Below, one piece after another: positions 37,093 through 40,229 of a DNA stretch of 46,977 nucleotides. Each line of letters starts with the position of its first letter. Position 1 is the stretch's first letter. The notes below the pieces were generated by a model that worked only from the letters and a program-made list of their open reading frames with translations, searched no databases and had not been told where the DNA came from. The translations under genes and the position numbers were made by a program. The stretch comes from Gammaproteobacteria bacterium. Lineage in GTDB: Bacteria; Pseudomonadota; Gammaproteobacteria; Chromatiales; Chromatiaceae. The stretch is taken from positions 1 through 46,977 of the forward strand of contig JASJCU010000026.1 of NCBI GenBank assembly GCA_030065815.1, in the 5' to 3' direction.

Positions 37093-37944
<852 letters not shown>

Positions 37945-37977
37945 GAAGCCTGTTCCAATCCTTTTCTAGCCGTCAAT

Positions 37978-38004
37978 TTAGCACTCGGACAGGTCGACTG
38001 CCAA
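37978..38004 (-). promoter_or_regulatory. CIRCE-like HrcA operator, rpoH-proximal copy
   Basis: On the minus strand: TTGGCAGTC, a 9-bp spacer and GAGTGCTAA. The right arm is a perfect CIRCE arm, the left matches TTAGCACTC at seven of nine positions, and the spacing is the canonical 9 bp. It ends 33 bp before the rpoH ATG. Confidence 0.8.
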
Positions 38005-38011
38005 GGTGCGT

Positions 38012-38038
38012 CTAGCAGTCGCGAATTGAGAGTGCTAA
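38012..38038 (-). promoter_or_regulatory. CIRCE-like HrcA operator, rpoH-distal copy
   Basis: On the minus strand: TTAGCACTC, a 9-bp spacer and GACTGCTAG. The left arm is a perfect CIRCE arm and the right matches GAGTGCTAA at seven of nine. It lies 7 bp upstream of the proximal copy; together they form a 61-bp symmetric structure whose outer arms are perfect and inner arms degenerate. Confidence 0.82.
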
Positions 38039-38555
38039 TGCTGTTCGGAAGTTCCCGAATACCGAAAAACCTCTGAAAATCAAGCAAAAAAGAACGGGAT
38101 TCCGGGCGCCCGCAGGGTGATCGGCCGGGGCCGCCGTCGACGTGGGTTGACGGACGGCCGTCACAGAACTTGAGTCGAGGCCTGATTGCGCGCCGGTCGT
38201 GCGACGCCGGTCGCGTGACCATCGGCGGCGGCGACGCCTCGCCCGGTTGCCGTCGATTCGCCGCAAGCCGCGGCCGGAAGCCGGCCGGTCTGGTTCGGCA
38301 CACCGCGGTCGCGGGCCCGCCGCGGCCAAGTCGACCGTCGGGTGACGACGGCGCCGATCACCCGGTCCGGTGCGTCGCTGTGCCCGACCCCGGGCGTCCG
38401 GCGTCGCGCGGGGCGCATCGCTGCGGCGCCCTGGTCGCGCTGCGCCACGTGGATCGGCCGACCCGTGCGACTGGCAGCGTGATTGCGGCGGCCACAGCCA
38501 GGCGGGAGCCGTTCCGGCAGCGACCGCCGCGCGGCGCGCCGTCACTGTAGGCCGG

Positions 38556-39449
38556 TCAGCGCGGTGGCGCGATCAGCGCGGCGAGGATCCGTTCGAGGTA
38601 GCGCACGAGCAGTGAGAAATGCCCTTCACCGGCGATGAAGTGGGCGTCGACATCGGGCAGCAGCGCCGCATGGCGCCGGCCCATCGCGACCGGCACCGTG
38701 TGATCGTCGTCGCCATGCCACAGCTGCACCGGCACGCGGACCGCGCTCGGGTCGATGTCCCACGGCTGCGTGAACAGGCCGAGCTCCTGGGCCGGCCCGT
38801 CGCCGCCGCCTTGGAACGCCTCGCGAAACGATGCCGTGACCGCGTCGCGCACCTGCGGGTCGGCGAGCACGTCGCGATCCGCGGCGCCCGCGACGCCGAC
38901 CAGGATGCGCAGGATATGCTCGGGAAAGCGCCCGAGCAGCGGGCCGATGGCGCGCGCATAGGCGCGCCGTGCGAGCGCCGGTGCGTGCAGGTAGAAGCGC
39001 ACGCCGGCCGCCGCCGCGGCATTCATGCCTTGAGTAGCGCCGGGCGTGTCGAGGCGGCCCAGGCCACACGCGATCGCGATCCGGCCGATGCGGTCACCGA
39101 GGTGTTCGCCGGCCGCGAGCGCGTACGGCCCGCCGCCGGAGACGCCGAGCAGTTCGAACCCGTCGATACCGAGCCGGTCGGCGAAACGCGCGAGGTCGTG
39201 CGGCCAGTCGCCGAGCCGCCGCCGCGGCTGCAGCGGTGAGCGGCCGAACCCGGGCCGGTCGGGCGCGATCAGGCGGATGCCGAGGCGCGTGGCCGCGTCG
39301 TCGGCGAGCCGCGCCTCGAGCCGCGAACCGGGGAAGCCGTGGCAATACAGTACCGGTCGGCCGTCGCTCGCACCCCATTCGGTGTAGGCGAGCGTGCGCC
39401 CGTCGCCGAGCTCGCAATGCCGGCACGGGCGCGATCCGGCGTCGCTCAT
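38556..39449 (-). CDS. Alpha/beta hydrolase
   Basis: A 297-residue alpha/beta-fold hydrolase. The oxyanion motif is CHGFPGSR, followed by APDRPGFGRS; the nucleophile is S104 in LGVSGGGPYAL. The likely acid and base are the aspartate in HGDDDHTVP and the histidine in AGEGHFSLL. The substrate is unknown. Its ATG overlaps the stop of the upstream methyltransferase gene (ATGA), so the two are translated together. This pair separates ftsX from rpoH, which are adjacent in E. coli. There is no signal peptide. Confidence 0.85.
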   Translation of the reverse strand: MSDAGSRPCRHCELGDGRTLAYTEWGASDGRPVLYCHGFPGSRLEARLADDAATRLGIRLIAPDRPGFGRSPLQPRRRLGDWPHDLARFADRLGIDGFELLGVSGGGPYALAAGEHLGDRIGRIAIACGLGRLDTPGATQGMNAAAAAGVRFYLHAPALARRAYARAIGPLLGRFPEHILRILVGVAGAADRDVLADPQVRDAVTASFREAFQGGGDGPAQELGLFTQPWDIDPSAVRVPVQLWHGDDDHTVPVAMGRRHAALLPDVDAHFIAGEGHFSLLVRYLERILAALIAPPR

Positions 39450-40120
39450 CGCTTGCGGAAGCGCAGGAAGTACTGCGTGCGCATGAAGTCGAGACGCTCG
39501 ACGAGCTCGAACCCGGCGGCCTCGATCTCCGCGGTCACGACCGCCTCGCCGGCGCGCACGTGGCCGAGCACCCACGGGTGGGTGACACCCGGGATGCGCT
39601 TGAAATCGATGACGACCAGCTCGCCGTCCGGTCGCAGCGCCGCGTGGATGCTGCGCAACGTCGACTGTGGGTACTCGAAATGATGGTAGGTATCGCTGGT
39701 GAACGCGACGTCGATGCTGGCCTCGGCAAGGCGCACGCTGTGCGCATCGTTGACGACGCCGATGACGTTTTCGAGGCCGCGGTCGCGGGCGCGTTGCACG
39801 CTGGCGTCGACGAAGTTGCGCGCGATGTCGACGGCGTAGACGCGGCCGCCCGGTTGCACCGCGCGCGCGAACAGGGTCGCGAAGAAGCCGGTGCCGGCAC
39901 CGATGTCGGCGACGACCTGGCCGGGGCGCAGGCGCAGGTGGCGCAGGATGTCGTCGCGGCGGTCCCAGACCTCGCGGCCGTCGCGCTCGAACACGCCACG
40001 CCAGCGCCTGACGTCCGGGTTGACGTAGCCGTCGTTGATGCCCGGGTTGACGTTCTGCTCGGCCGCCAGCGGCGCGACCCACAGCGCGGTGGCGAGCAGC
40101 AGGCACAGGCAACGGATCAT
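39446..40120 (-). CDS. Exported class I SAM-dependent methyltransferase-like protein
   Basis: A 224-residue protein with a clear signal peptide (MIRCLCLLLATALWVAPLAA, then EQN) and a Rossmann methyltransferase domain. SAM motif I is VADIGAGTGFFA (starting at residue 71), and VYAVDIARNFVDASV, SIDVAFTSDTYHHFEYPQ and LRPDGELVVIDFKR follow. ATG at 40118-40120 has GGGGTC upstream; a frame open to 40186 would add 22 residues. A periplasmic methyltransferase is odd because SAM is cytoplasmic. The target is unknown. It overlaps the downstream hydrolase gene and lies 109 bp after ftsX. Confidence 0.8.
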   Translation of the reverse strand: MIRCLCLLLATALWVAPLAAEQNVNPGINDGYVNPDVRRWRGVFERDGREVWDRRDDILRHLRLRPGQVVADIGAGTGFFATLFARAVQPGGRVYAVDIARNFVDASVQRARDRGLENVIGVVNDAHSVRLAEASIDVAFTSDTYHHFEYPQSTLRSIHAALRPDGELVVIDFKRIPGVTHPWVLGHVRAGEAVVTAEIEAAGFELVERLDFMRTQYFLRFRKR

Positions 40121-40229
40121 CGGCACGACCCCGCGGGTGTCAAACCTGCGCCAATGGTAGAGGTGATTGCGCGCGGCCGCGTTCACGACAGCTGCCGGCG
40201 GCGGCCCCGCGACGGAGACGCGCGTCGGC

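Follow-up and report, generated by a model that had tools for sequence, protein, structure and literature searches.

What role do two predicted operators of the repressor HrcA have directly before rpoH, the gene for the heat-shock sigma factor sigma-32? Heat-shock control in gammaproteobacteria is known mostly from Escherichia coli, which is without HrcA. The pair discussed here lies in a stretch of 46,977 nucleotides from a member of the Chromatiaceae, which we call the window. Sequence and comparison show its operator sites, their overlap with promoter sequences and their near-fixed geometry in relatives, and they show that hrcA and rpoE are both encoded in the genome. Very probably, the 61 bp of this element form two HrcA operators superimposed on a sigma-E and a sigma-70-type promoter of rpoH, where HrcA would repress both promoters and so join the responses to envelope and cytosolic stress. 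Genomes and loci are referred to by G and L numbers.

Two predicted HrcA operators precede rpoH

The rpoH gene of the window was identified with TIGR02392 (400.1 bits; cut-off 323.1). Upstream of it, CIRCE-1 reads on the minus strand as 38038-TTAGCACTC-TCAATTCGC-GACTGCTAG-38012 and CIRCE-2 as 38004-TTGGCAGTC-GACCTGTCC-GAGTGCTAA-37978, with TCAATTCGC and GACCTGTCC as the spacers (Table 1). Each matches the CIRCE inverted repeat, TTAGCACTC-N9-GAGTGCTAA, at 16 of 18 arm positions around a spacer of exactly 9 bp, and in each the outer 9-bp arm is perfect while the inner one matches at 7/9 positions. This is precisely the structure given in the preliminary description of the locus. The symmetry of the whole that it also reported is only approximate, the two inner arms being mutually reverse-complementary at 7/9 positions. 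The operators are 34 bp apart, start to start, and 33 bases separate the element from the rpoH start codon. A scan of the full window at up to three mismatches returned CIRCE-1 and CIRCE-2 only. In 100 shuffles of the window the mean was 0.01 CIRCE (sd 0.10), and no shuffle contained two.

The ftsX and ftsE genes are located farther upstream of rpoH in the window. Between ftsX and rpoH (38559-40186, minus strand) lie a methyltransferase-like and an alpha/beta-hydrolase-like gene with weak family matches, unlike in E. coli K-12 (L165), where ftsX directly adjoins rpoH upstream.

Table 1. Features of the rpoH upstream region, in the order in which they are read on the minus strand
Feature	Position	Strand	Basis or remark
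Sigma-E -35 element GGAACTT (predicted)	38049..38055	minus	Motif in PMC8103513, PMC4890791
CIRCE-1, predicted HrcA operator, TTAGCACTC-N9-GACTGCTAG, 2 mismatches	38012..38038	minus	Farther from the start codon
Sigma-E -10 element TCTCA (predicted)	38027..38031	minus	Two bases from the end of CIRCE-1 arm 1 plus three of the spacer
Linker ACGCACC, 7 bp, between CIRCE-1 and CIRCE-2	38005..38011	minus	Sequence
CIRCE-2, predicted HrcA operator, TTGGCAGTC-N9-GAGTGCTAA, 2 mismatches	37978..38004	minus	Nearer the start codon
Sigma-70-type -35 element TTGGCA	37999..38004	minus	Positions 1-6 of CIRCE-2 arm 1
Sigma-70-type -10 element TAAATT with TG extension	37975..37980	minus	Overlaps the end of CIRCE-2 arm 2
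rpoH leader with candidate ribosome-binding site AAAAGGA (37959-37965)	37945..37974	minus	Sequence; inference
rpoH, heat-shock sigma factor sigma-32, 283 aa	37093..37944	minus	NCBIfam TIGR02392

Each operator overlaps a predicted promoter

Both operators share bases with a predicted promoter, and both promoters had been overlooked in the preliminary description. The predicted sigma-E promoter, GGAACTT-N17-TCTCA (38055-38027), has its -10 element in CIRCE-1 and fits a -35 element GGAACTT, a -10 element TCNNA and a spacer of 15-17. Sigma-E motifs on record in the literature include GGAACTT and TCAAA (PMC4890791, PMC8103513, PMC2893595). Inside CIRCE-2 lies a predicted sigma-70-type promoter, TTGGCA-18-TAAATT, which matches 9 of 12 consensus bases and carries a TG extension. 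It was found by a promoter scanner that works without any CIRCE information, and it was the single sigma-70-type site in the 661 bases scanned (37900-38560), where shuffles gave a mean of 0.0. That the outer arms double as promoter elements may be the better reason why they are perfect and the inner arms are not.

The genome encodes both regulators

The source assembly comprises 3.9 Mb in 172 contigs and is 98.9% complete. It contains hrcA, whose presence the preliminary description had presupposed, as a single copy (C80:12664-13680, E 6e-98, 328.6 bits against a cut-off of 197.2); the gene that follows was identified by eye as grpE. One rpoE gene scored above its curated cut-off (C128:24363-24929, 320 bits against 236.15, E 1.1e-95). 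As for the CIRCE sites that might be expected before groES and dnaK, a third CIRCE lies 69 bp before the groES match and is the only one in the assembly at up to three mismatches besides the rpoH pair.

CIRCE is conserved before rpoH in relatives

The rpoH upstream regions of 50 of the 56 relatives were compared, with G021, G022, G029, G040, G047 and G052 left out. A CIRCE was called at up to three mismatches within about 300 bp of the rpoH start. By this measure the operator is kept in 36/50 relatives (22/32 in the family and 14/18 outside it) and in all nine genomes of the genus. With hrcA present and the operator conserved, the earlier proposal of HrcA control over rpoH holds in these two respects, and the interpretation built on it is partly supported. 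The implied oddity of a CIRCE at this gene does not hold, as 25 of the 33 near-complete relatives with hrcA have one.

Ten of the 32 family genomes match hrcA (in G017 through a fragment) and yet gave no CIRCE at rpoH. Several of these loci (L024, L025, L027-L034) retain, by eye, a sequence resembling GTGCTA as a remnant of the last arm, a possible extended -10 element. L021 (G016) has its CIRCE, together with a weaker second site of four mismatches, some 200-230 bp upstream of rpoH, against the usual distance of about 60-95, as if sequence had been inserted between operator and gene. Another feature of the family is a leader motif, GGTATT or GGTATC, located at the rpoH start or within the 70 bases leading up to it in 13/32 family genomes and 0/18 outside. 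Examples are L015 (G011), L014 (G024) and L031 (G012); the motif is absent from the window.

Named rpoH loci from GTDB genomes extend the comparison. Of 80 such loci one was too short, and 40 of the 79 usable ones have a CIRCE at up to three mismatches. They include Thiohalobacter, Thiohalomonas, Alcanivorax, Methylomonas, Methylococcus, Pseudoxanthomonas, Plasticicumulans, Thiodiazotropha and Sedimenticola. At the same threshold, no CIRCE was found among the 79 in the Colwellia, Halomonas, Acinetobacter and Idiomarina loci, and three enterobacterial loci (Enterobacillus, Rouxiella and Rahnella) are also without one.

Operator and predicted sigma-E promoter overlap in many genomes of the class

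When the upstream regions were read together, the spacing between GGAACTT and CIRCE arm 1 proved almost constant in many of them. A strict sigma-E match was present in 20 of the 36 relatives with CIRCE, and in 16 its -10 element lay inside the operator; the strict test failed altogether in the 16 relatives beyond these 20. It also failed in 22 of the 40 CIRCE-bearing named loci, so the overlap is not universal, and 13 of the 79 named loci pass it with CIRCE and a sigma-E promoter at 15-17 bp. These strict counts are likely too low because the strict expression (GNAACTT) missed P3 of E. coli rpoH (TGAACTT), which a looser expression found.

A pattern joining the sigma-E -35 element to the first arm, GGAACTT-N8-11-TTRGCASTC, was searched in 369 gammaproteobacterial genomes. 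It gave 65 hits in 64 genomes, against three genomes of the 369 for the reversed pattern (our own reading of the table). An rpoH orthologue was located in 63 of the 64 matching genomes (E up to 1e-50), and 62 of the 65 hits sit 47-221 bp before rpoH on the same strand. The gap between GGAACTT and arm 1 is N9 in 51 hits, N10 in 11, N8 in two and N11 in one, with N9 and N10 equivalent to sigma-E spacers of 16 and 17.

Since the pattern demanded nothing of arm 2 or the spacer, both serve as independent tests. The second arm was present at up to two mismatches in 61/62 rpoH hits and 0/3 other hits, and it was perfect in 45 of all 65. For comparison we used 40 groES operators of relatives, taken in two batches and a subset of those found. 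Spacer position 3, which completes TCNNA, is A in 58/61 rpoH operators and 5/40 groES operators (p 3e-18). Three bases beyond arm 2, the base is T in 56/61 against 2/40 (p 7e-20), and the hexamer at the place of the sigma-70 -10 element has at least four TATAAT matches in 54/61 against 1/40. GGAACTT is absent from the 20 bases before the groES operator in 40/40.

From this comparison, the A at spacer position 3 and the T after arm 2 are marks of embedded, predicted -10 elements. TCNNA is completed in the rpoH operators and rarely in those of groES; therefore, the rpoH CIRCE of this class-wide set contain a predicted sigma-E -10 element. Judged by these marks, an overlay of operator and putative promoter similar to that in the window is present in other gammaproteobacteria.

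Tandem operators occur in part of the family

In the genus, seven of the nine genomes have a second site at up to three mismatches and an offset of 33 or 34. A good second site is wanting in the remaining two, with none in G001 and one of six mismatches in G003. CIRCE-1 lies close behind GAACT in 15/32 family genomes, and nine of these have a second site at up to five mismatches, always at an offset of 33 or 34; in 1000 single-base shuffles the mean for such a site was 0.02 and the maximum 1. Over nine tandem genomes (81 bases per arm), the four arms in order have 1, 12, 23 and 1 mismatches, and here perfect outer arms were not required.

A search of 210 family genomes for GGAACTT, arm 1, 30-60 bases and GAGTGCTAA found the tandem in 11, which belong to 5/61 genera and include 7/9 genomes of the genus; no match to the reversed pattern was noticed in the 210. 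The offset is 33 in six genomes, 34 in four and 32 in one. The arms of these 11 tandems have 2, 14, 27 and 0 mismatches, the low outer counts being partly built into the pattern. In tandem relatives the linker is 5-7 bp long and variable in sequence. The tandem is thus found mainly in part of the family, and both class-wide hits of 65 with a second site at up to four mismatches (G000 and G287) are family members. Outside the family, G044 has two sites 32 bp apart, without a sigma-E match.

The rpoH operators also differ from those of groES in the arms themselves. A change of C to G at arm position 7 (CAGTC/GACTG) occurs in 11/122 rpoH arms of the class set and 0/80 groES arms, where arm 1 was left free at this position by the search pattern and groES arms had been chosen at up to three mismatches. 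Arm 2, which was unconstrained, has the variant in 7/61. This suggests a weaker HrcA site at rpoH. The variant is confined to one arm in seven of the nine operators that bear it. Position 7 is changed in both arms in L044 (G046), L230 (G307), L151 and L153, where CAGTC is combined with GACTG (GATTG in L044). In G046 the rpoH operator is the sole CIRCE of the genome at up to three mismatches, and none lies at groES.

The element co-occurs with hrcA and rpoE

In a sample of the class, hrcA was found in 39/40 genomes with the composite element and 26/40 without it (p 3e-4), one match in each group being a fragment below the curated cut-off, and the pattern-negative genomes may still hold CIRCE sites with other -35 forms. 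The exception is G340 (L210), in which no hrcA was found. Its CIRCE is decayed, the spacer measuring 8 bases and arm 2 beginning with a different base (TAGTG), and the promoter elements GGAACTT and TCTCA (sigma-E) and TGCTAAAAT (extended -10) are kept. Similarly, G036, with no hrcA found, keeps GGAACTT-N16-TCTCA and has no CIRCE. Among the 40 near-complete relatives, hrcA and a CIRCE at rpoH were not significantly linked (25/33 against 3/7, p 0.17). Three genomes at least 94% complete (G007, G019 and G050) have a CIRCE at rpoH and no hrcA found, perhaps due to assembly gaps, and the operator is likewise kept in three less complete genomes with no hrcA found (G005, G013 and G039). A strict sigma-E promoter precedes rpoH in 19/33 relatives with rpoE over the cut-off and in 0/7 without (p 0.009).

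Alternative explanations

Other readings of the repeats differ widely in probability. That they arose by chance and have no role is hardly credible given the shuffle expectation of 0.01, their conservation in relatives and the class-wide and tandem searches. We also think it very improbable that they work through hairpins in RNA or DNA, such as a thermosensor in the rpoH leader, instead of as protein-binding DNA. Inverted repeats can fold, and the inner arms also pair across the 7-bp linker, but the arms fit the CIRCE consensus, the position-7 variant hits only one arm in seven of nine operators and so breaks the pair, and CIRCE-1 overlaps a -10 element, so that much of it would be untranscribed from that promoter. 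An Rfam search of 37900-38600 gave no family at its gathering score and one weak match (M23, 18.8 bits against 41.2, E 0.7). We set the RNA-element reading aside on this sub-threshold match and the broken pairing. It is improbable, too, that only the outer arms now matter, as sigma-E and sigma-70 -10 elements, and that the inner arms are left over from HrcA control that has since disappeared. The outer arms of the nine tandem genomes do have only 1 + 1 mismatches against 12 + 23 in the inner ones, and G340 and G036, with no hrcA found, retain promoter elements without an intact CIRCE. However, 12 and 23 mismatches of 81 compare with about 61 expected at random (our own arithmetic), hrcA is present in 39 of the 40 tested genomes with the composite element, and a perfect second arm persists in 45/65 class-wide hits.

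The remaining alternative concerns the purpose of the tandem. Cooperative binding of two HrcA dimers was raised in the preliminary description. We regard it as possible but rather doubtful that the tandem serves this end and that the weak inner arms tune the operator, so that rpoH would be released before groESL. An offset of 32-34 recurs in 11/210 family genomes even though the search let the outer arms lie 30-60 bases apart, this offset is about three helical turns, and the CAGTC variant distinguishes rpoH arms from groES arms (11/122 against 0/80). On the other hand, 33-34 bp correspond to 3.1-3.2 turns at 10.5 bp per turn, which would set the dimers some 50-85 degrees out of line (our own arithmetic). 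The spacing could equally reflect the distance between two promoters, and a second site at up to four mismatches occurs in only 2/65 class-wide hits. The near-fixed spacing of 32-34 bp is therefore compatible with cooperative binding and no proof of it.

Relation to known systems

Parts of this arrangement are already known. In Geobacter sulfurreducens, a CIRCE TTAGCACTC-N9-GAGTGCTAA was predicted before rpoH at position -51 in 2004, and others at groESL and hrcA-grpE-dnaKJ (PMC545781). A predicted CIRCE before rpoH is thus common to this bacterium and the window, whereas G. sulfurreducens is a deltaproteobacterium with one perfect site, and the available excerpt of that paper mentions neither a sigma-E overlap nor a tandem. 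Sigma-E control of rpoH is also established, P3 of E. coli rpoH being a sigma-E promoter (PMC8103513). In K-12 it reads GAACTT-N16-TCTGA (L165), with the same spacing as in 51/65 class-wide hits, whereas no part of L165 (501 bases) comes closer to CIRCE than seven mismatches. E. coli, one of 14 control genomes, gave no hrcA match.

The operators of groESL offer the closest comparison within the relatives. The 40 examined share the palindrome, the arms and the N9 spacer with those of rpoH. They differ in that 34/40 directly follow a sigma-32-like promoter (TTGAnn-N10-15-Cn(n)CTA; the sigma-32 consensus is given in PMC545781), in that the embedded -10 marks are rare (5/40 and 2/40), and in that CAGTC is found in 0/80 arms.

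An overlap of HrcA and sigma-E elements at rpoH is not described among the literature matches listed, which consisted of titles and abstract starts, and part of it may already be in print. Within those matches, what appears to be new is that predicted HrcA operators and sigma-E promoters of rpoH are fused at a single place, that this fusion extends across gammaproteobacteria, and that it has a two-operator form. The most relevant older paper is that of Permina and Gelfand from 2003, which may already contain part of these findings.

A proposed circuit for sigma-32 control

For rpoH, we infer HrcA binding, repression, the gate logic and feedback from the arrangement of sites. HrcA activity depends on GroE according to the titration model (PMC6032397). 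In unstressed cells GroE would keep HrcA active, and HrcA would cover both sites and hold rpoH off. Misfolded protein would divert GroE, so that HrcA would release the operators. The sigma-70-type promoter would then open, and the sigma-E promoter would fire if envelope stress had also freed sigma-E. Because the predicted sigma-E -10 element lies inside the operator, sigma-E would raise sigma-32 only once HrcA is gone. Sigma-32 would in turn drive the chaperones, including groESL, and fresh GroE would re-arm HrcA as feedback. In such a circuit HrcA would repress both groESL and rpoH, and sigma-32 would activate groESL. The element would probably be a compact switch that ties sigma-32 production to envelope stress and chaperone shortage.

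For the class as a whole, the balance tips slightly towards a common design in which one 27-bp palindrome would serve as HrcA operator, sigma-E -10 element and sigma-70 promoter. Under its combined logic, rpoH would respond either to free sigma-E together with released HrcA or to released HrcA by itself. This design would be old and widespread in gammaproteobacteria that keep HrcA, and in part of the Chromatiales it would have been split into two operators, one per promoter. The genomes G340 and G036, with no hrcA found, retained the promoter and not the palindrome, which makes the idea further testable by comparison. If it is true, gammaproteobacteria other than E. coli put their sigma-32 gene under HrcA, and do so at the very bases that sigma-E needs. 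The HrcA and sigma-E stress systems would then form one circuit, and envelope stress alone would be unable to raise sigma-32 unless chaperones were short.
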